Source: Cudoniella acicularis
Taxonomy: Eukaryota > Ascomycota > Leotiomycetes > Helotiales > Helotiaceae
Assembly (NCBI GenBank): GCA_013054445.1
Contig: JAAMPI010000117.1
Location: 1-64,000 of the forward strand
DNA: 64,000 nt
Direction: 5' to 3'
Both the position numbers and the translations under genes were made by a program. Position 1 is the first letter of the stretch; every line of letters begins with the position of its first letter. Under the pieces are notes generated by a model, which did not search any database, was not told where the DNA came from, and was given only the letters and a program-made list of their open reading frames with translations. Positions 14,896 through 62,824 of this stretch are shown piece after piece.

Positions 14896-16821
14896 ATGCC
14901 GGCATCGACTTCAGCATCTCAATTGGCGATGGACACAGCCATGGCAACGCTACCAACAATGCAACCGACCAATAGCACGCAGTCAACGAGCGAGGACGAA
15001 ACAGAGCACAAGCCATTGACTACGGGGTTTATCAAAGCTACGGGAGATGCGACTCGCGATGAAAAGCACGATGAGGTAGCCTGTCAAGGTGGGGATAGAG
15101 GGTTGGTTTTCAATGAGAACGCGACGCCAGTAGAGGTATTATACTGTGGACTTTTGGAGGCAGATGCTCTCGTCGCCACGGAGAAAATTGACTGCGACAA
15201 CAATGACAACAAGGAGGACACATGTCAAAATGAGGATAGAGAGTTGACTCCTATTGATAACGCATCGCCAACAAATGAACCACTTGCCACGGACTCACTA
15301 GACTCGAAGCAGATTCTACCAAAAATTCCCATAGTAACAGTGATTCCCATCGACAGCGCGTCACCAGCAGAGGAAACACAGCATGGGTATTTGCATACAA
15401 AGATTCTCGAGGTCAAGGGGGATATGAGTTGCGATGGCAAGGACGAGAAAGCAGTATATCAAAATGAGGATAGAAAGCCGACTCTCGTTGAGAACGCACC
15501 GCCAACAGCGGAAACGGTTGTACTTGAACCGAAGCGCATTCCAGCAACACTCTGGGTTCCTAAAGGAAAGCCGAATCTCACCGAAGTTACTGCAGATTCT
15601 CTCAAGATTCCAGCAGGACTTTGGGTTCCCAAAGAAAAACCGAATCTCGCTGAAGTTACTGCAGATTCCCTTAAGGTCCCAGTAGAGTCGACTCGTCCTA
15701 GAAGAGCGTTACTAGCAAAGCGCCCAGTTGCCACAGCTTCATTTAAGCCAAAGCAGCTTCCAGAAAATATTTTCGAAGCGAAGTTGCTACTGGCGCAACC
15801 GGACGTCGCAACCGCAACTGGGCCAAAGATCATTGTCCATATGGTGCGTCATGCAGAGGTAAGAATCAACCACCTTTCGAACCCTCTTCTTGAGCAAGAG
15901 ATCTAACATATGATTACGTCAAGTCTGCACACAAAGTAAGCGCTGAAATCAATTATGATATGCCCGACCCCAACCTCACTGAAGCTGGTGAAGAAGAGTG
16001 CCAACAAGTCGCTATCGATTTCAGAGAGTGGCACGCAAACTACATTACACACATTTTTTGCTCACCCATGATACGAACTATCAGAACTAGTCTCTTGAGC
16101 TTTTCGCAAATCTTCTCATTGCGAGAGGATTTTAAGATCGTGGCTATGCCAGAATTACAAAATTTGGGGAGACAAGCAAGTGGGACTGGTTTGGATGCAG
16201 CTGTGCTTTGGGAAATGGGTGAAAACGAATGGAAAGGTCGGGTAGACACTGTGAGCCATGTGTGCGAAGGATGGAATGTGAAGCGGCATACCAAGTGGTG
16301 TCCAAGGCAGTATAAATGGAGGATTCGGTATATCAAAGATTTTATGTGAGTATTTTCAAATTTAAAAACTAAGCTCGTCAGTCTTCTATGGCATGCTGAT
16401 ATAATGGCTAACTTATCTGCGAGCATTCAGAAGGAAGCTTTCAGATGATAATCCAGGAAGACATATTGAGATCGTCCTTGTTACCCATGGGAGCCTTTTA
16501 CTTCAGCTAATAGGAGGCGGTATGTCTGTTTGCGATGCTCCCAGTTTCTGAAGCGTTCCACCGAGTACTAATTTTCAAACAGAATATACAGAATCCCACA
16601 AGTCTTGCAATATTTTCACTTACGTTCTGGACCAGGATGGGTTTAAAAGAATTACTCGTGGCGAACTCCAGGATATGAGAAATACAGTCGCAGATGCAAG
16701 AGGCTTTGAAGGGCCAACGCAGGAGGTAGTCAAGCAGATTCGTGAAAGAGTTTCGCTTGGTTGCGAGAACCTGTGGGCACTTAATTGCCAGTATAAGTCT
16801 TGGGAGGTCCTGTTTGCTTGA
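14896..16821 (+). CDS. Histidine-phosphatase (phosphoglycerate-mutase-like) protein, repetitive N-terminus
   Basis: 570 residues in four exons: 14896-15858, 15924-16345, 16431-16519 and 16583-16821, summing to 571 codons. The C-terminal 250 residues are a histidine-phosphatase fold. The phospho-accepting motif is degenerate (HMVRHAES in place of RHGE/RHAQ), followed by PDPNLTEAGEEEC, CSPMIRTIRTS and the second catalytic His in VLVTHGSFLLQL. The family cleaves or transfers phosphate; the substrate is unknown. The unusual part is an N-terminal extension of about 310 residues, low in hydrophobics. It holds direct repeats of a 23-residue unit (IPA.LWVPK.KPNL.EVTADSL) at about 15538-15675, plus weaker repeats around NED/RELTP. 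The extension has no recognised domain and is probably disordered. Confidence 0.8.
15538..15675 (+). repeat. Intragenic 69-nt direct repeat
   Basis: Two consecutive 69-nt units plus a partial third encode the IPA-LWVPK-KPNL-EVTADSL-K repeats of the phosphatase-like protein. The copies differ at several bases while the amino acids are largely kept, so selection on the protein is possible. Confidence 0.7.
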
Positions 16822-17226
16822 ATCAATGAATATTCCAAGGAGCGGAATGTGGTAGACGTGGTAGACAATGGTAGATGCTGATGGCAGGAGAGAAATTGAA
16901 ATCTTGACGTTGGAGAAATGAAGCGAAAGAGACAAGTGTGGCTGATGTTGGAAGGGTGGCGTTTATCCGCGCTATCACGTGAATCTATTTTTGGCGCGTC
17001 TGGCGTAAGCGAGTCAACGCCGCCTTCGTTCGAAATTTCACGAGCTTGACAAACAAACACAAACAGTTTACTGAAATTTCCACTTCATCTTCCGGAAAGT
17101 TGATACACATTCGTCACTTCTGGAAAGGACGCTGGTCACCAAGAATTCTTTTCATTAACTTTTTACCTCCACTGATATGAATGTGCGATAGTAGCCTCAG
17201 CAATATCTCCTCCGCCACACGCCATC
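16822..17226. other. Intergenic region
   Basis: Spacer between the phosphatase-like and helicase genes, both on the plus strand. Minus-strand frames here mirror the upstream gene. It presumably holds a terminator and the helicase promoter; no specific motif was recognised. Confidence 0.4.
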
Positions 17227-20200
17227 ATGGCTGAGAACAATACTGACCAGGATCCCGTCCGGGGGACTGAATCGATCATAAGCTGGTATGATAGCACCAG
17301 ACCCATGTTTATCGACTTGGTAGGAGACTATGCTGGAAAGGAGCTGTTCTTACTTGAAGGCGACTCGCTTCTACGAGAGTGTTTCGAAGACGACAGAATA
17401 GATTTTGACTGTAAGTTGCCATTTCACACCAGGTGTATTATAATCTCAAACTGGAGACAACTTCGATTTTGCGGTATTGGAACCTCTCGATCAATCATTT
17501 GCTGGCACGCGATGGTGTAGACCGTGTGGTTGACGACAATGATAAGCTTGATCAGCTTCAAATTTCATGCAGATGTTCTGCTGCATCAAAACTCTGTACA
17601 AGACAGATCCGCTAACATCGCTCAGCTGGCTATCAATTATTACATACCGTCTATGTCGTGGAAAGATTCCTGGAGAACCTCGTAAAGCGACATTGCTCGT
17701 TCCACATCGCCTTTTTCGATGGTGAGTTCTTCCGTGTTTGAGTCAAATTCCTTTCTAACAAATATCCCAGATCATTCAGCCCTTTGTATTCCTCCTGGTC
17801 TTACAGCAACGCATCGCTCGCGATATCTACTGGCAAGAGCTGTGATCAAGCGACATTTGGCTCTGCGCTTACCTTTATCGCACTCAGATGTGGTGATCAA
17901 TGATTTTCCTTCTCTCGAAAGCGAGACATTCAAGGAGTATCTTGATATAACCCCTATTCATTTCGTAATGGTTCATGATGGCTCGTCGAGAGCAGCTAAA
18001 GCCACTCTGGATAGTCCTGATGAGAAACTGGCAAAGATTTTACTACGAGGAATGATATGGTATTGGAATTCTCACAGATTAAACGTGGCCCTCATCAACC
18101 AGATCGAGTTCAGAGATTCCAAAGTCTTTACGATGATTGTGGAGAGTTTCACAACTTCAAGCAAAGCGAAACTGCTTATGACAACCAAGTTCATCAATGA
18201 AATCAAGGAGACGAGAACTTTGCTACAGAAATGTTACCAAAACGATGAGCCTGAATTTGAGGTGGACGTCGAGGACCTTGCAGAGAGTCCATCCAGCGAT
18301 AGAAATTGCGAAAGCTATTACCTATCAGCATTCGCTGTCTCTACCATCCTCGAAGACGAGGACAGCGATACATTCCTACCCAGTGCATTTATCCTTCATA
18401 AGATAATACTGACGCATATGTCAATTTCAGAGCGAAGACTTCCGCTCATCACTTTTGATAGCGACTTCGAGGAAAAAATCGATGATTTTCTCTCCAAGAT
18501 CTCTGACATCTTCAGAAACACCATGACAGATGCTAAATGGATCGATTTCATGAAAAAGAAAGGAGCAGCTGATGATACAATCGACCTCATCGATGGTCGA
18601 ATGTTTCGTGCAACTATTAAGGCCCTGTGTGACAAATCTATTGAAGGACAAGGAGCACTTCCTCTTGCAGCGCAAAAAGACTGGGCATATCTGCGTGGCA
18701 TGGTAATGCACCTGGCAGAGGAAGAATTATCGCTGAAGGGGAGTGACAAGCCGGAGAGCTCGAAAACCACGGCTACGCAACGTGACTTCGAGCCAGTGTC
18801 CGAAGACCTTGCTGTACTCCCATTTTCGCATCCTGTATTTGATAAACATTTGGAATGCATTCACGTCACTGCAGACACCTCAGTCCCTGCTAGGTTGGGA
18901 GCTATGAAGCTCTTTCGAGAAACAACACACTGGCACAATCACCGGAAGCCACTGAACCCCAAAGTTCCAGTTGCCCAAAAAGTCTCTAAATGGCGGTTCG
19001 TAAACCCAATCTCGCTCCCATACAACAATTTTGTTACGTATTTAATAGCTCTTTACTGACTTTCGCAGTAATCCACTACGGATGAATCAATTTTACATGA
19101 ACGAAATGACAACTTATGCGGCAAGTCTCACAGGGGCAAAGGGCAAGGCACTTGACGCCGAAACGATAACCGTTGGACCAAAGAAATTGATCAAGCTAGT
19201 CGAAGAGAAACCCGAGAAACCCTCAAATGGCCCCAAGAAGGAAGAAGCATCAGATTCTCGCCAAACGAAAGGGAATGCAGCACCTAAAAAGGGGACCAAG
19301 AAGGCCGCTAGTGGGTTATCGAGAAAAGAACAAATGATTGCGGACAACAAAGAGCGTAAGGGTGGGACAGAAGCTGACAAGGCATTCAACGCCTGGGCTA
19401 CTGTAAGAAAAGGCCTTGATACAATCCCTAGTGACCAGGAGCGTTACTTGAGAACCATTGATCATTTGAACAGTTTGGATTCAGCAAAGACTGGGCATCT
19501 CGAGGGAGAAATCAATACTTATGCGCTCCAAAGCCTCCTAGGATGGTGGTCCGAATGTTGCAAATCAGACAAGAAGCCGGAGAGTTATCACATCGTGGCG
19601 TTAATTTGGACCACGGTTCGAGCAATCTGCACTTCAAAGTCACCCACGAGCAAGGAAGTTACCCAACACGTTACGAAAGTCTGTACTCTCTTGGGAATTA
19701 CTGATGCTGTCACGCCAATCGCCTCTACAACTGATCGCAAGCTGTCGTTTACTTTCGCTTACCCACTGCAAACACAAGTACTTCGCATCGATATGTCGCA
19801 AACTGATTTTCAACTCGACTATTGCGGTCCGTATATGGACAGAATGTTAGATGCGAAACCCGATCCTCGAGTATCAAGTTTCGTTCCGGATGGATGGCAA
19901 CGAGATGTACTTGATCAACTAGATGCAAACAAGAGTGTCTTTGTAGTTGCCCCTACATCTGCCGGAAAAACTTTCATCAGTTTCTACGCTATGGAGCAAG
20001 TATTGCGAGCCGACAATGACGGCGTTCTTGTATATGTTGCGCCTACAAAAGCGTTGGTTAATCAAATTGCCGCAGAAGTTCAAGGTAAGTTTCAGCGATA
20101 TTTGGAGGATAACATCTCGCAAATTAAGTGAACATTGTTGACTTAGTTAGGACGATTCTCTAAACGGTATCCGCTCGCTGGAAAGGGTATCTGGGCCATC

Positions 20201-47416: not shown

Positions 47417-50400
47417 ATGACTTTCTTCTATAATACGATAGTGATTGCACTTGCCCTTGGGGTAAACTGCGCCCATTTCAAAATTCCAGAGGTTGAGAAC
47501 ACAGTTAATGAAATACTGCACGAATTTTCAAACACTGTCCACTACGCTGGAAACGGAACTCAAAGCTCCCATGTTGAAAAACGACAGTCCACTCCCTACT
47601 GGTACGAAATGATTACCCATCAGGGAATATCTGCATTTGGACCGAGCGGATATCAAGTATATCGAAATGTCAAAGATTACGGAGCAAAAGGTAGCTTTCA
47701 ACACATCAAAAAAAGATGGGATTATTTTATTTGCTAATCAATTCATAGGTGACGGAGTCACGGATGATACTGCAGCTATCAACGCGGCCATGAACGCAGG
47801 AGGACGCTGCGGTCAAGGATGCTCCTCTTCCACCGTTACGCCGGCTGTAATTTACTTCCCATCCGGCACATACATACTCTCTTCGTCAATCATTGATCAA
47901 TACTACACCCAGGTCATTGGAAATCCCAACAATCCGCCAGTTCTGAAGGCCACTGCAGGATTTTCAGGATTCGGATTAATTGATGGCGACAAATATTACA
48001 CCGCAAACTTGAATTGGGATTCCACCAATGTGTTTTGGAGACAAGTCCGTAATTTTGTCTTTGATTTGACAAGTGTTCCTATTGGATCTTCCATTTGTGG
48101 TATCCACTGGCCTACGGCTCAAGCGACGAGCTTGCAGAATCTTGTTTTTCAGATGAGTTCAGCTGCTGGGACACAGCATGTTGGGATATTTTCTGAGAGC
48201 GGTATGTGTCAAATAATGGTAATCAAGATTGAGAAAGAAGTAGCTGATAAAGTGGTAGGTTCTGCTGGCTTCATGAATGACTTAACCTTTAACGGAGGTA
48301 ACTTCGGTCTACAAATCGGAAACCAACAATTTACCATGCGCAACATCGTTTTCAACAACTGCGTCACGGCAATCAGCCAACTCTGGAGCTGGGGATGGTT
48401 ATACCAAGGTCTGACCATCAACAACTGTCAAAAGGGAGTCGACATTTCGTCCGTAAATTCTGGGAGCCAATTAGTTGGGTCGATCACTATCATCGATAGC
48501 ACATTCACAAATACACCAGTTGGAGTGATTACAGCATTTAGTTCAACATCTTTCCCAAACACGGCGGGGAGTCTGATCTTGGAGAATGTTTTCCTCAGCA
48601 ATGTGGGAATTGCTGTGCAGGAAGCGGGAGGCGCAACTCTTCTCGCTGGTAATAGTGGCTCAACTACTATTGCAGGCTGGGGTCAGGGAAACGAGTATAC
48701 ACCAAATGGACCGCAAAGATTCCAAGGCTCATTTACACCAATGACCAGACCGGAATTACTCTTGAACGGAAATGTATATTATTTTCGTTCCAAGCCGCAA
48801 TACAACAACTTACCTGTATCTTCATTTCTGAGTGTCCGCAGTGCTGGTGCCACGGGAAACGGCGTGGCGGACGATACAGCTGCTCTACAGACCGTTATAA
48901 ACAATGCCGCCGCCTCAGGATCCGTGGTCTACTTCGACGCTGGAACATATCGAATAACAAGCACTTTACAAATTCCACCCGGGTCAAAGTTGGTAGGAGA
49001 GGCATACCCAATAATCGTGTCAAGCGGGCCATTCTTCAACGACATGAACAGCCCTCAACCAGTAGTCCGTGTCGGCAACGCAGGACAGGCTGGGAAAGTT
49101 GAATGGACGGACACGATAGTCAGCACGCAAGGCACACAAGCAGGCGCCATCGCCATCGAATGGAATCTCGCCAGCTCCGGAGCTGCTTCCGGCATGTGGG
49201 ATGTGCATGTTCGTATTGGAGGATTTGCAGGTTCGAATCTCCAGGTTGGGCAATGCCCGAAGACTCCCGGGAATCTAGCAATTAATACGGCCTGTGTTGG
49301 GGCTTATATGCTCATGCATGTTACGGCTTCGGCGTCGAACCTTTATTTGGAGAATGTATGGCTTTGGACGGCGGATCACGATGTTGATAGTTCGGATAAT
49401 AATCAAATTACGATTTATAGTGGGAGAGGGCTGCATATTGAAAGTACTGCTGGGAATTTCTGGCTGTGAGCTACTTCCTTTCCTCACTTGATCATGATTA
49501 TGCACTTTGCTGATTATTTCGTATAATAGTGTTGGCACAGCCGTCGAACATAATACCCTCTACCAGTACCAGTTAGCAAACACTCAGAACATTTTCATGG
49601 GCTTCATCCAAACAGAAACTCCGTAAGTACTGGTCAAAATTGTTGATGACAAGCTAAGTCGCTTGAAGTTATTACCAGCCGAATCCCAGCGCTCCTACGC
49701 CGTTTAGTGTTGTGCCTACCCTCAATGACCCCGATTTTGCCTCTTCTTGTGCTGGCCAGTCAGGAAATTGTGCTAATGCCTGGGGTTTGCGCATCCTCAA
49801 TTCCAGCAATATTCTCGTATACGGAGGCGGACTTTATTCCTTCTTCAACGACTACAATACCAGTAAGCTCTATGAATTTTCGATCCCCAATCCTCTATCC
49901 CCTTTTTTGATTTGTTTTGCTCGCATAAGAATAATTCTCCACAGCTTGCTCTAACGGTGGCGGTCCTGAAACCTGCCAATCCAATATCTTCAGCCTCGAA
50001 AGATCTCTAAGCAACATAAACGTCTACTGCCTCAACACAGTAGGAACAACCAACATGATAACCCAAGCCGGGAAATCCCTGGCATTGTACAGTGACAACG
50101 TCAATATTTACTCGGATACAATCGCTCTTTTTAACCCAGGAGTGGTGTCTTATCCCATCTCTTCTCCCGGGGCTACTATCCTGTGTTGGACATACCGGGG
50201 ATGCTATACGGATTCTATATCTGCACGCATACTCGGAAACACGCTCACGGTTAACGGTGGTGCGGCGGCTATGACTATTGGGGCTTGTTTGAATGCTTGT
50301 CAGACTGCTGGCTTCTCGCTTGCAGGCATCGAGTATTCGGGAGAATGCTGTAAGTCCTTTCCTCCCAACTATCATCGTTTTAACATATTTTCTAACGTGT

Positions 50401-51025: not shown

Positions 51026-52079
51026 CTAACTTGAACTTCTCGCTGGATATGCTGCTGTCTCATCAAATTTATCTCTCAACTTATGCTCAACAGCCCATTC
51101 ATAAACACGATCCCAATCTCGGCAGGTGTGCGTAGTTCGCGCATCTGGAGCGCTGAGATTGGATTCAGGGATCCATGTCCAGGAGATTGTAGAAACGTCA
51201 ATGGAACACATCAGAGATTGGCGAATGGAATCTATGCAGTGCGCTTTAAAAAATTGGTTAGTAAGTGATGACCAGCCAAGGAATATTTTGAAAATTTACC
51301 AATGTGCCAATCATTCTGCCATTTAATCTCCGCCTGATATGAACCGTTGGCCTTGACTCCAAGTGGGTGGCCGCCGTAGTATTCGGGATAGAGACTTTTC
51401 CGAATCATATTCTAATACAATTTATTTGTTAGCAAAACGCCCTCAAGAACAATATATAGAACATAAATGCATACCAAGCAGTGAAGCTGATGGAAGACAT
51501 CGAGTCCCACGATATATTGCGAACTCCCAGCTAACAGCGGAGCCGTCTGGTTTGGAAGTTGTCGAGCAGATTCCTCATCGATCTGACTGATTCCTACGTC
51601 TGCACGCAGCCAATATCAGTTTATTTTATTTCAAAGGAGGCAAGCAAGGCGTACGTCTGTAAAGTACATCCCAAGCCGCATCAACCTCCTCGGATGGTGG
51701 CCCTTGATATGGAGTACTGTCACTGGCGGCGTTACTGTGAAACACCACTGTTTTGTACTCGAGCGCATCTTGAGCTGGTGCTGGTAGATGAATTAGTTTC
51801 GTTTTAGAGGCGATTAAGTTCATACGTACAGTATATTTGCTGCGGAAAGGGTGATGGATATGAAATGGGACGAAGGTAAAGTAGAAGGCAGAGGGTAGTG
51901 AGCAGAATATTGAATAACGCAGAAAGAATGAGCCATGGAAATGTTCGCCTGCGATGAAGAAGCTCTCGCGGTTCATGGGCGAACGATTCAGCATCACTCA
52001 AAAGCCTCTCATCCTCTTCATTTGAGGCCTTGCTGTCCAACATTTTCCTCTCGGGTTTAACTTTGTCGCATTCACGCAA
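51026..52079 (-). CDS. UstYa-family (DUF3328) oxidase, putative RiPP cyclase
   Basis: 276 residues in five exons: 52079-51830, 51780-51655, 51599-51475, 51411-51300 and 51243-51026; the phases agree throughout. An N-terminal cytosolic stretch is followed by one membrane helix (WLILSALFNILLTTLCLLLYL), then YSPAQDALEYK, the family's PYQGPPSEEVDAAWD motif, and both metal-binding HxxHC motifs: HQLHC before intron 3 and HIAHC (split by intron 4) before IDSIRQSLMC. UstYa proteins catalyse oxidative side-chain cyclisation of Kex2-cut ribosomal peptides in the secretory pathway (ustiloxin, phomopsin, asperipin, cyclochlorotine). The gene is divergent from the repeat precursor at 52674, 594 bp away, which strongly suggests that peptide as substrate. 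It is intact. Confidence 0.9.
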
Positions 52080-52673
52080 AGCATTTACTTAGAACCCACA
52101 AGTTTTCCAAGAAGTGTGCCCTAGGAAAGTAAGTGAACCGCGCCGCAGGATGCTAGGGCGCAAATTAAGGCGGGGTTGATGTGCAATTTCCCTGTTCGGA
52201 GCGGAGGCCGTTTAACGAGAGGCCTCCAACATTTAATGAGGCACGAGGCAGTCTCTGGGTTAAAAGGAGGTCTAGGCTGGAATTTAGAGCCTTGGAAAGA
52301 AGAAGGCTTTCCGTCGCAATAATTGCGGTGAGCTGCGCCTTCATATGGATAATAAGCGCATTGCGCTTACAAGGCACCAAAATAAATTGGAACGCCGTAA
52401 ATACCATAAGTAGTTTCCGGAGGTAAGCAGGTTCTCGGCACAGCAAGGAAGTTCCGGGAAACATCTACCTCGCCGTACGCCTGGAAACTTTGAATTAAGC
52501 GGCCGACCTGAATCAGCGCTGTAGACTTGGCGCCAGAGACGGGATATAAAATGGTCACCCGACCAAATTTCGAACTGTAGCTGAATTTCAAACTTCATCT
52601 TCATTTTGGGTTCATTCTAATCACCTGACGCAAGCCATTAAACTCACCAACCTCATTCATTCCTCCTACCATT
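52080..52673. promoter_or_regulatory. Shared divergent promoter of the RiPP pair
   Basis: 594 bp between the two start codons. A TATA-like TATAAAA at 52545-52551 lies about 120 bp before the precursor ATG. Frames on both strands inside the region overlap each other and look incidental. Co-expression of the two genes is inferred from the arrangement. Confidence 0.5.
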
Positions 52674-52946
52674 ATGAAATTTCAAGAAGTTGCCCTCTCC
52701 GGCCTCGTCGCCTTCGTCAGCCTTACAAGCGCCCTTCCCTTAGTGAAGAAAGATGAAGCTGCGACTGATGTTGACAATACATACATTCCCGTCACTTCGC
52801 ACCTGTTCTGGATTGGCCAAAGCCCGAAAACCAAGAGAGATGAAGCCACTGCCGATGTCGACAACGTATATATTCCGGTGACGTCGCACCTGTTCTGGGT
52901 TGGAAACTCCCCAGAATCGAAGAGAGACGAGGCGGCAAGAAAGTGA
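52674..52946 (+). CDS. Putative dikaritin-type RiPP precursor with two Kex2-bounded repeats
   Basis: 90 residues, single exon. Residues 1-20 form a signal peptide (MKFQEVALSGLVAFVSLTSA), then LPLVKK. Two 29-residue repeats follow, residues 27-55 and 56-84. Each starts DEA, has a D-V-D-N spacer, an identical core YIPVTSHLFW (37-46 and 66-75), a G-x-S-P segment and a terminal KR. The protein ends DEAARK. Kexin cleavage at KK and KR would release one peptide per repeat. This is the design of ustiloxin, phomopsin, asperipin and epichloecyclin precursors, and the core begins with Tyr followed by a branched residue, as in several of them. The adjacent UstYa gene supports cyclisation. An alpha-pheromone precursor shares the layout, but the usual Cys-flanked pheromone core is missing. 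The core is unknown to me. Confidence 0.85.
   Translation: MKFQEVALSGLVAFVSLTSALPLVKKDEAATDVDNTYIPVTSHLFWIGQSPKTKRDEATADVDNVYIPVTSHLFWVGNSPESKRDEAARK
52782..52898 (+). repeat. 87-nt tandem repeat encoding the precursor cores
   Basis: The two repeat units have an 87-nt period. Within the ten core codons four third positions differ (Tyr, Pro, Val, Thr) without changing an amino acid, whereas flanking residues vary. This indicates old duplication with selection on the peptide. Confidence 0.8.
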
Positions 52947-54019: not shown

Positions 54020-57007
54020 ATGACGAAAATATGCGGCTGCTACTACTACATAGCATCGGTGCACTACGGGCAACCACAATACCTCCCACTCCTCAATAGC
54101 GAGGCGCACACAACTATCCTCTCTACGACATCGAGAACAGTACTTAAACAGAAATTCATGAACCCATCAAAAAAAAGAAGCTATCGATGAATGCGTGTAC
54201 ACTTTTCCCCTCTACGATGGCGTGAGCGTCGTCAGCTTCACGTGCCACGTGGACGACAAAGTCTTGCGAGGCTTGGTGAAGGAAAAAGTCAAGGCGAAAC
54301 AAATATTCGACGATGCTGTCGCAAAGGGCGAAACAGCCGGTCTACTTACACAGGCGGACGAGGCATCAGATGTCTTCAGCACTAAGCTTGGTAATATCCC
54401 CGCAGGCGAGAGTGTTACTGTCGAGATCACCTATGTTGGAGAACTAAAGCATCACGACACTGATGGCATCCGATTCACGATCCCAACAAAGATCGCCCCG
54501 CGATATGGATCTGGTCCGGTTGTTTCCGGATACCAGGCGCAAGACAATGGCGGTATCAGTATCACCGTCGACGTGAACATGCCGGAAGGATCTTTCATCA
54601 AGGGAGTTCAGTCTCCTTCCCACCCAATCGCCGTTTCGATGGGAACAATTTCGACTGCATCCAATGCTGACCCCACGATGAGCAAAGCATCTGCCACCCT
54701 TTCCTTGGGAAGTGCTGCGCTTGAAAAGGACTTCGTTCTCATCGTGCAGTCCAAGGATATCGGGATCCCCAAGGCAACTCTGGAGACTCATCCCACGATT
54801 CCGAACCATCGAGCATTGATGGCCACACTCGTGCCCAAGTTCTCTCTTCCGCCGGCTAGACCAGAAATTTTTTTTTGTTGCCGATAGAAGTGGCAGCATG
54901 GAGGGAAACATACAAATGTTGGTTTCGGCCATGCAAGTCTTCCTCAAGTCCATGCCGACGGGAGTTAAATTCAACATCTGCTCATTTGGTTCATCGTACT
55001 CCTTCCTCTGGGAGAAAAGCAAAACATACACCGCAGAAACTCTCGAGGAAGCAACTAGACATCTCGAGACTTTTGGTGCAAATATGGGTGGTACGGAAAC
55101 CTTCAGAGCAATCAAGGCAACGATCGATCGACGCTTTACTGACATCCCACTTGAAATCATGCTCCTAACCGATGGAGATATCTGGCAGCAACAGGAGCTC
55201 TTCAATTATATTGATGAACAGGTTGAGAAGTCGAAGGGCAAGATCAGAGTCTTTCCATTGGGAATCGGTAGTGGCGTATCTCACGCGCTCATCGAGGGCC
55301 TGGCTCGCCATGGAAATGGATTTGCACAAGCTGTACAGCATGGCGAGAGACTGGACAACTCGGTGGTTCGCATGCTTCGCGGGGCGTTGTCGCCACATAT
55401 AACCGATTACACCCTTGAGGTCAAATATGAACAAGGAGAGGATGATTTCGAACTGATCGACAAGGTCACAGAAGGATTTAAGGTGCTTCTCAGTGATCCC
55501 AGCGAGGCGACAAAAGCTGCAGAAAAGAAGCCAACAATTTCGCTGTTCGATACGGCTGCAAATCCAGAGGCAGAGAGCACCAAAGGATTCGGTGATGCAA
55601 CCTCTCATTTGCCCAACATACCGTTCCCGAAGCTTCTTCAAGCCCCTCATAAGATACCATCCCTCTTTGCATTCTCTCGAACTTCGGTTTATCTCTTAAT
55701 GTCGCCCGAGACATATCAGCGAAACCCAACTGCGGTCGTCCTCCGTGCAACGTCTGAGCATGGACCCCTGGCTCTCGAAATCCCAATCGAAGTTCTTCCA
55801 TCACCAGCCGAAACCATTCACCAGCTTGCCGCTAAGAAGGCAGTTCAGGACCTCGAGGAAGGTCGAGGCTGGATTTACGACGCCAAAGATCAAAACGGAA
55901 CTCTCGTCAAGGACCGATACCCAAGCTCATTTGAAGACTTGGTGAAGAAGGAAGCTGTGCGACTAGGGGAGAAGTTCCAGATCGCTGGGAAGTGGTGCTC
56001 ATTTGTCGCCGTTTCTGCGAATGACGAGGAGATCGACCGCAGGAATGTCTCGACCTCAAATCCCGTGGATCGTAAGTTGAAATACCGTGCGAACAACTTA
56101 CGGTCTCTTCCACAGCTTTCGTCACAGACCAGGGCAACCAGAGGCGGTCGGGGCTCAGCTAGCCCGCCGCGCTCAAGCGTTCGAAGCGAGGGTGCGTTCA
56201 CAATGGGATCATTTGGGAACGCACCACAACCACCCTCAAGGACACAAGCACACGCACGTCAAATCCCCCCAAATATAGGCCATGGGCCTAGCAATCTCTT
56301 CGGCGGCATCATGCGTATGAGGTCTATTGCACCGTGTCCAACGATGAGACAGATGGCGCCGGCACCTGGTACGTTAAAATATGAGGCAATGGCTGATCTG
56401 ATATTGCAAGCTGACCGTCGATTTGTAGGCTCAAATGCTCAAGGCCTACCCCCACCCCCCGGTGCGCTTAAGCACCAATATTTGATGGACGCTAGGCTTA
56501 CCAGCGCGGAATCTTACCAGGCGCTCGGCTCAATGGCTGAACCTGAAGAAGACTTTGCTGGAGTATTATTTACATCTAAAAAAGTCCAAGAAGTCCAAGA
56601 AGTCCAAGAAATCTCGAGAGATGCAGCCTCGATATTTGTGTGAGGGATCAGAAGAAGAAGAAGAAGTATCCAAAGGGCGGGGTGAATCTGAAGGCTGGTC
56701 AACTAAGACACCTATCGAGAAGCTGCACGGTTTTATCGCTCTCCAAAATTTTGATGGCTCCTGGCCCGCGGATGATGACGAGATCTCTGCCATACTTGGC
56801 TTACCGGTAGGAGAAAATCCCCAAGGCGGTGACAAGAGCGTTTGGGTGACGCTGATTATCGTCTGCTTCCTGGAGATGAAGATGGCGGAGGAAGAGGGAA
56901 CTTGGGGGATGGTTGTTGAGAAGGCTCGTGGTTGGTTGGAGGGTTGTGGACCCATGGACTTGGAGGATTTGGAGAAACAGGCCAGCGAGGTTGTGAAGAA
57001 GCTTTAA
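54020..57007 (+). CDS. VIT / von Willebrand factor A domain protein, three +1 frame breaks
   Basis: About 995 residues without introns if the breaks are ignored; related to inter-alpha-trypsin-inhibitor heavy-chain-like proteins found across fungi. The VIT domain (about 54050-54530) includes VYTFPLYDGVSVVSFTC and AKGETAGLLTQ. The vWA domain (about 54870-55420) has a MIDAS-like DRSGSM, then GGTETFRAIKA and MLLTDGDIW. The rest is Pro/Gly-rich with a Lys/Ser tail and a C-terminal helical region (FIALQNFDGSWPADDDEI). The start at 54020 (MTKICGCYYY) fits. The frame slips at three homopolymers, each +1: A8 at about 54169, T9 at 54868-54876 and A6 at about 56576. Between them no stop occurs. Sequencing indels are therefore as likely as decay. 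A cytoplasmic protein-interaction role is inferred. Confidence 0.75.
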
Positions 57008-60950: not shown

Positions 60951-62824
60951 TTACTCCAAAATTAATCGAATATTACCTCTTCCTTTCTCTGGCGAAGGAA
61001 ATCCATAATCGCTTTTTAAATCCACATCCCTCCTATCCGTCTCGTACAACTTCATCCCTTTAACTCCAATCACAGCCCCCGTTTCACCTCTTTCGAGCCT
61101 TGCAAAAGTCCTCAAGAACGTTGCTAGTGCCATGTACAGTTCGGCATTTGCCAAAGGCTGCCCGAGGCAATTCCTGGTACCTCGAGAAAAAGGCATTAAG
61201 TGCTTTGGATTTCCTGATGGTATATTGACAGGCCTTGAAGGGAGCCCGTGTGGGGGCGGCTCTGGTAGCCAACGCTCAGGGATAAATGACCATGGCTCCG
61301 GGTAGAACTCTGGAGATTGATGAATCAAAGGACCATGCATGCTGACTGCGGTCTAATTCGCAAAATTAGAAAGTGTCAGCCCAAGATCAGACAAGCAGAC
61401 CTACATTTGGCGGAATAGTCCATTCTCCAAGCTCGAGTATCTCGGTAGGAGCTGAGCGAGCGAGACGATAGGAAACTCCGGAAACAAGACGAAGTGTTTC
61501 ATGGATTACCGCCGTCTGAAACCGTCAGAACTGCACATGAAATTCTCTCGATATCTACCTGCCAGGTAAGGAAGTTTCTCAAGTTCCGCCGGTTTGACTG
61601 GTTTTGAAATAACTGGAATCGCCTTCTCAAGTTCCTCGACAAGGACTTGCAGTCTTGCTTGATCAAGTAAGAGATAAACTATTGCAGATGCCAGTGAAGT
61701 AGCTGTGGTAACAGTTCCAGCTATTAATAGCAACTCGGCTTCCTGCCATAAACGATTCACGGATTTGTCTTCATCTGGCAAAAATGTGCTGCCCAACATC
61801 TCCGTGAAAATGGTATCGTGCTTTAGATTTTGGTATTCCCCTCGAGACTTGATAGTTTGGTTGATCATCTTCACGCAGTGCTAAAGGTTGTTAGTAGACA
61901 TCTTGAACGCAAATTTGCAAATCGACTGACCTGTTTTAACTCATTGTACTTAGCCAATCCTGGACCGAATAATGCCTCCATAAGCCCGTTTGGTAAACTG
62001 TCCAGGACGTGTGGTAGCCACTGCGCCTGAACCGTAATGTGCATGTTCTTTATCAGCACATCTGTTGCCTCCATAATCATAGCATTAAATCCGGGAGCTT
62101 CAATATAGTTTTCGTCAACACCAAAACAATATTCTGCAATAATGTCACTTGTCAACGCTGAGAAAGCTGGGGTCAAAGGGATAACCTCGCCCGTCCGTTG
62201 ATAACGTCGCAAAACGGAAATCAAACGAGAGATTTTCTCTTCAATAAGATGGTCGATCTTGCGGATTGAGGCAGTGGAAAAGAAAGGAGTTACTGCATTG
62301 CGACGAAGGCGATGTTTCTCGTGTGAGATTGTTCCAAATATCGACTCTTTATTTGAAAACGCATGCGACCAGGTTGGTGGCTTGTCGCGTTTGCTGTGTG
62401 AGGCGAAGAGCACATCATAGAAATTTGGATCGTTGACATGTAGCTCGTGAGGGCTTATACGAATAATTGGGCTTTCTGGCGAGCGGTTTTTAGTTTGGGA
62501 CTAATTTGCGTCGACAAGAGTGGAGGTTTTAGAAGATTGTGGGATGCAGTGATGATTAACATACTGTATTCCTCGTGGAGTTTCTGTATCTTGAACATGT
62601 ACTCCCCATTCCCGGCAAGTTGATCATAATAGAACATGTACCCGTATGTAAGGCCGGCGAGCTTTGGGCCTGGGAATTTGGCATATTTACTGAAAAAAAA
62701 GACGATGGATTGAGACTCCAGCAGCATAGACAAGGTATATAATAGCCACATATGCAGCAAAGGTTTTAATTGAGAGCTCGGACGAGACAAAGTGGTAGAG
62801 GTGAGCCATAATGCCGATGCTCAT
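60951..62824 (-). CDS. Cytochrome P450 monooxygenase, one +1 T in exon 1
   Basis: 544 residues in five exons: 62824-62565, 62475-61931, 61880-61563, 61515-61405 and 61352-60951. The ER-anchored heme-thiolate enzyme has an N-terminal membrane helix (KTFAAYVAIIYLVYAAGV), KFPGPKLAGLT, I-helix AGTVTTATSL (Val where most P450s have Asp or Glu), HETLRL (ExxR), PERW and the heme loop FSRGTRNCLGQPLA with its Cys ligand. The substrate is unknown. The frame needs one T fewer in the T8 run at 62693-62700, between SIHRLFF and SKYAKF. The third intron (61562-61516) has a GC donor (GCAGGT) required for frame. It is about 8 kb from the RiPP pair, with unrelated genes between, so membership in that pathway is doubtful. 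Confidence 0.88.

Follow-up and report, generated by a model that had tools for sequence, protein, structure and literature searches.

A short gene for a Kex2-type repeat precursor, with the sequence YIPVTSHLFW in both of its repeats, was found head to head with an intact UstYa-family gene in the genome of Cudoniella acicularis (NCBI taxonomy: Leotiomycetes, Helotiales, Helotiaceae). The gene anatomy supports well the reading of this pair as a probable UstYa-type (dikaritin-like) RiPP locus. The original prediction considered the locus undescribed. This holds for the precursor peptide, the sequence of which is new, but not for the kind of locus: repeat precursors next to UstYa genes are already known, have been surveyed across fungi (PMC7329392) and occur ten more times in the stretches of the same genome that were read. 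The window, i.e. the whole stretch of DNA analysed, comprises 64.0 of the 64.66 kb (64,661 bp) of contig C191.

Anatomy of the precursor and UstYa genes

The precursor ORF requires no intron and encodes, in this order, a hydrophobic N-terminus, KK, repeat 1, repeat 2 and DEAARK (Table 1). Both repeats end in KR and 22 of their 29 residues are identical, with YIPVTSHLFW unchanged. Translation of the ORF bore out the 90-residue protein with two KR-ended repeats and this core in each, as had been proposed. The signal peptide assigned to it at the same time is putative: the N-terminus is signal-like by a hydrophobicity rule, the best uncharged 9-mer having a mean hydropathy of 2.36.

Table 1. Features of the locus and its surroundings on contig C191, and repeat precursors near UstYa genes on other contigs.
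Feature	Position	Strand	Remarks
Precursor gene, Kex2-type repeat protein	52674-52946	+	Single exon encoding 90 aa, with 2 repeats of 29 aa
Signal-peptide-like N-terminus, residues 1-24	52674-52745	+	Hydrophobicity rule
Repeat 1	52752-52838	+	DEAATDVDNTYIPVTSHLFWIGQSPKTKR
Putative core YIPVTSHLFW, repeat 1	52782-52811	+	
Repeat 2	52839-52925	+	DEATADVDNVYIPVTSHLFWVGNSPESKR
Putative core YIPVTSHLFW, repeat 2	52869-52898	+	4 synonymous, 0 amino-acid changes versus repeat 1
Intergenic region	52044-52673		630 bp, between the divergent start codons of precursor and UstYa gene
UstYa-family gene G7Y89_g2625 (PF11807, DUF3328)	51026-52043	-	Five exons, 264 aa, HQLHC and HIAHC
UstYa gene, exon 1	52043-51830	-	
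UstYa gene, exon 2	51780-51655	-	
UstYa gene, exon 3	51599-51475	-	
UstYa gene, exon 4	51411-51300	-	
UstYa gene, exon 5	51243-51026	-	
Pectate-lyase-like gene (PF12708)	47613-49469		Lower-coordinate side, then WSC-domain exons
VIT and VWA exons	54162-56643		Higher-coordinate side
Cytochrome P450 exon	61871-62500	-	About 9 kb from the precursor
Precursor on C40 (L010)			Repeat QEADDGNYYYYGE
Precursor on C107 (L024)	16577-17452	-	About eleven di-histidine repeats HHTEAQIAAKKAKA, without Tyr or Trp, beside a UstYa gene
Precursor on C279 (L019)			Repeat STDGPSIAIPWTKNYGEYEE
Precursor on C336 (L027)			Repeat NFEADSSLAVG..SSYAT
Precursor on C368 (L029)			Repeat EEVDAGLFTSLDGVWASYGYDEK
Precursor on C681 (L016)			Repeat WESDAPAE, truncated by contig end
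Precursor on C788 (L031)			Repeat ELDGDLYNYK
Precursor on C801 (L023)			Repeat NEADVDSIQW
Precursor on C1520 (L026)			Repeat DEDLAKYG
Precursor on C1634 (L034)			Repeat DGDDKVVYTWSLPE

It is very improbable that this ORF is a fortuitous reading frame or the remnant of a gene. When 20 sequences were generated from the window by a first-order Markov model, none contained a signal-like ORF with KR-bounded repeats at a score of at least 30, and a looser scan omitting the signal rule returned no match in 30 Markov versions at a score of at least 50; on the same scale the repeat of the real precursor scores 129. The frame is intact, the start is signal-like and the differences between the repeats are biased towards synonymous ones. 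At the DNA level the two repeats are 74% identical, their 23 differences in 87 bases being distributed 8/2/13 over codon positions 1/2/3 (chi-square p = 0.019), with a pS of 0.61 and a pN of 0.16. This codon-position bias, together with the excess of pS over pN, indicates that the repeats diverged under constraint at the protein level. On its own, the unchanged run of ten core residues is not significant (P = 0.26 if changes are placed at random) and, two copies being weak evidence, the argument for constraint on the core only was set aside. A VIT/VWA ORF in the window, with a score of 27, was dismissed as it is not a short repeat precursor.

The point in favour of a chance ORF is that the searches returned neither a database copy nor a homologue of the precursor. 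A search with the native 90-aa protein against the protein database gave 19 candidates, none at E ≤ 1, and a lengthened probe aimed at longer precursors gave none at E ≤ 1 among the best 7997 word-sharing candidates. The search for a paralogue in the C. acicularis genome returned only the precursor itself, and the string YIPVTSHLFW did not occur in the literature searched.

Homologues marking the precursor as an alpha-type pheromone gene had been named beforehand as a reason to abandon the reading; as no homologue was found, none marks it as such. A mating pheromone gene is hardly credible. For another leotiomycete, Oidiodendron maius, an alpha-factor of 89 aa that likewise has no more than two repeats has been described, and the same source gives GQ or PG as present in the majority of leotiomycete mature repeats (PMC10569646). 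Repeat 1 has GQ (IGQSP), but repeat 2 lacks both dipeptides and shows GN, and the precursor holds no Cys and no XA or XP dipeptide directly before the core. Of the alpha-type pattern given in that source (GQ or PG, XA or XP before, a Kex site after), GQ was thus found in repeat 1 only. Furthermore, a DUF3328 gene lies nearby in three out of 216 KEPs (Kex2-processed repeat proteins) of the fungal pheromone group and in none of 227 yeast alpha-factors, as given in the KEP survey (PMC7329392). C. acicularis is reported to have a detectable alpha-factor gene, while no functional ste2 could be annotated (PMC10569646). A degenerate alpha-factor DNA pattern gave 57 matches in the genome versus 31 in a reverse-read control and missed that gene, so the latter could be the same gene as the precursor. 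No multi-repeat alpha-factor cluster was evident among the matches, only C388 and C1810 having two each, kilobases apart, and at the one site inspected out of the 57, on C1194, there was no precursor.

Splicing of the UstYa gene, with all four introns of the GT-AG type, yields a translation equal to NCBI G7Y89_g2625 letter for letter. A domain search, also named in the original prediction as a way to overturn it, detected UstYa homology: PF11807 matched the protein at 1.4e-52, scoring 179.1 bits where the cut-off is 25, over profile positions 3-220 of 220. With this match over the whole domain and two HxxHC motifs (residues 150-154 and 191-195), the protein belongs to the UstYa family and the gene is intact, in agreement with the prediction. 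Across 62 aligned homologues of the at least 120 listed, H150, H153, C154, H194 and C195 are invariant and H191 is nearly so. The best leotiomycete relatives among the matches listed include proteins of Halenospora varia and Amorphotheca resinae. A hydrophobic helix at residues 35-57 is a probable membrane anchor. The structure model of the protein (mean pLDDT 77.1, pTM 0.62) had no match at E ≤ 0.001 among solved structures and its fold yielded no mechanism. Sequence comparison with solved structures gave weak matches, none better than E 0.02, that were judged to be chance.

The proposed divergent pairing of the two genes follows from their coordinates and strands, but the start codons are 630 bp apart instead of the 594 bp first claimed. 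A repeat precursor close to a UstYa gene, by which a dikaritin-type (UstYa-type) locus is recognised, is therefore present. In the intergenic region TATAAA occurs on the forward strand at 52545, 129 bp upstream of the precursor ATG, and is absent from the reverse strand; no inverted repeat of at least 10 was present in the region.

Neighbourhood and comparison with known loci

Selected ORFs of the window were scanned with Pfam, a coverage in which a small tailoring gene may remain. The sole other possible tailoring gene seen was the cytochrome P450 exon. On the higher-coordinate side of the locus, ORFs without a Pfam match are also found. None of the 48 tyrosinase matches in the genome lies on the window contig, and a tyrosinase in the cluster, which characterises the ustiloxin/phomopsin subgroup, is thus lacking here.

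The ustiloxin and phomopsin loci (dikaritins) resemble the present locus in KR-bounded repeats and UstYa-family genes, and have a signal peptide where the present precursor has a signal-like start. An acidic residue shortly before the Tyr-containing core is also shared, in EDYXI of ustiloxin and phomopsin (PMC6339444) and in DNTYIPV of the present precursor. As reported, these loci differ in having a tyrosinase with two or five UstYa-family genes, and cores of YAIG/YVIG and YVIP (PMC7329392) compared to YIPVTSHLFW. The asperipin-2a locus of Aspergillus flavus (aprA, aprY, aprT, aprR) is described as having, like the present one, one repeat precursor, a single UstYa homologue as oxidase and no tyrosinase (PMC6514808). 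Its core FYYTGY lies in repeats of 8 aa (PMC6514808, PMC7329392) and not of 29 aa, and no counterpart of its transporter and reductase genes was identified beside the present pair.

In the KEP survey, 1758 of 7878 proteins (22%) had a DUF3328 gene nearby, and these genes peaked at the position adjoining the precursor (PMC7329392). Such KEPs have the same architecture and adjacency as the present locus, but the survey took annotated proteins as input and required at least three repeats, of at least 8 aa between dibasic sites (Umemura 2020), while the present precursor has two. For both reasons the survey would miss it, and the term KEP describes the build of the precursor here, not the passing of that rule. 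Nine putative dikaritin clusters, with precursors beside DUF3328 genes, have been reported for another ascomycete, Venturia inaequalis, in a study for which a single repeat sufficed, provided that repeats were 10 residues or longer and set apart by kexin sites (PMC9632046), as they are in the present precursor. V. inaequalis is a plant pathogen, and the likeness noted concerns gene arrangement.

Repeat precursors beside other UstYa genes of the genome

A total of 121 UstYa domain matches was found on 62 contigs of the C. acicularis genome. The stretches around the matches were read on 25 of the 61 other contigs, taken mainly by match strength and not as a random sample. Ten of these contigs carried a further repeat precursor near a UstYa gene, each with a different repeat. 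No precursor was detected on the remaining 15 contigs read, where it should be kept in mind that for some matches (e.g. C980 near 9.5 kb) the stretch read took in less than both flanks and that intron-split or very short repeats can escape the scan. Out-of-frame rows duplicating a counted repeat were excluded: in one scan one row on C788, two on C279 and one on C107, in another the C788 and C107 rows. All ten precursors lie upstream of the nearest UstYa match at a distance of 0.6 to 2.2 kb. Eight are plainly head to head with the UstYa gene; those on C279 and C368 each have a UstYa gene on either side, and are divergent from one of these and in tandem with the other. Several have a putative signal-like first exon just upstream in another frame, as judged by eye.

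The same recurrence bears on the possibility that the repeat protein acts in linear, secreted form as a signalling peptide, an effector or a hormone, the neighbouring UstYa gene serving another pathway. In the survey cited above 6120 of the 7878 KEPs (78%) had no DUF3328 gene nearby (PMC7329392), and UstYa matches on as many as 62 contigs, with 15 of the 25 others read yielding no precursor, would fit such a coincidence. Precursors upstream of a UstYa gene and divergent from it on ten other contigs are, however, hard to obtain by chance, and 93.6 kb of control DNA (12 loci found via an unrelated pattern, 34.1 kb, plus 59.5 kb of the window) contained no short precursor, which makes a linear peptide quite unlikely. 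A long ORF in control locus L045 (score 52) was dismissed, not being a short repeat precursor.

With the register set by eye, ten of the 11 repeats compared hold Tyr or Trp. In eight of the 11 the six residues that precede the first of these aromatic residues include an acidic one, the exceptions being C107, C279 and C681. Di-histidine KEP types with DUF3328 genes, as on C107, are known from the fungal survey (PMC7329392).

On C279 (L018 and L019; 17.1 kb) UstYa matches occur at several places, which by their positions and strands belong to five genes or more, together with one repeat precursor. Tyrosinase matches were located within about 2 to 5 kb of UstYa matches at C1370:733-4025, C1124:22692-29031 and C1160:61436-71891, and in gene content these three loci come closer than the present one to ustiloxin/phomopsin clusters.

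Proposed pathway and significance

For the present pair we infer that the 90-aa precursor is expressed and enters the secretory pathway, where Kex2 would cut after KK and KR; one Kex2-type P-domain match was found in the genome. Kex1-like trimming would then leave the 27-residue peptides DEAATDVDNTYIPVTSHLFWIGQSPKT and DEATADVDNVYIPVTSHLFWVGNSPES. For the linear 27-mers the calculated MH+ values are 3005.453 and 2962.374, changing to 3003.437 and 2960.358 with the loss of 2 H and to 3001.421 and 2958.343 with that of 4 H; the corresponding values for YIPVTSHLFW alone are 1262.657, 1260.641 and 1258.626. The UstYa oxidase, probably membrane-anchored, would oxidise the core, which is rich in aromatic residues, with a side-chain macrocycle as the most likely outcome, after which flanking residues may be trimmed and the product secreted. 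UstYa-family proteins have been described as indispensable for cyclising the cores of ustiloxin, asperipin-2a and phomopsin (PMC7329392), and on this ground the oxidase probably acts on the aromatic core here. Since the products of these three pathways are linked through Tyr, Tyr is the natural guess for the linkage. By this analogy it is a guess, as His and Trp are also present in YIPVTSHLFW and some DUF3328-associated KEP types are reported without Tyr (PMC7329392). YIPVTSHLFW may be the product core within putative boundaries; the bond and the product ends cannot be read from the sequence.

Modification of the peptide without cyclisation, by hydroxylation, chlorination or another oxidation as in the cyclochlorotine pathway, is considered unlikely. 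Several of the closest matches listed for the UstYa protein carry a UniRef name beginning 'Cyclochlorotine biosynthesis', but cyclochlorotine, the product of that pathway, is a nonribosomal peptide. UstYa-family proteins are indeed reported to hydroxylate, chlorinate and take part in transacylation, also outside RiPPs (PMC12048977), whereas the members studied to date beside Kex2-repeat precursors were needed for cyclisation (PMC7329392, PMC6514808).

Macrocyclisation remains the preferred reading. More tentatively, the genome may contain many minimal RiPP modules, each self-sufficient and built of a UstYa gene placed head to head with a precursor of the Kex2-repeat type, with differing aromatic cores mostly placed behind an acidic stretch that could be a shared recognition element. 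In the same speculative vein, the present pair might yield a new class of large peptide macrocycle, closed via Tyr, His or Trp in YIPVTSHLFW with no tyrosinase involved.

What adds most to the first reading of the locus is the recurrence of head-to-head UstYa/repeat-precursor pairs with differing repeats. The locus itself illustrates how a survey of annotated proteins with at least three repeats can overlook such pairs. Should the pair function as proposed, a new ribosomal macrocycle could be produced and tested in a laboratory host with a single enzyme and a single precursor, and no fewer than ten sibling pairs with differing repeats would form a natural panel for UstYa substrate choice and the bonds formed.
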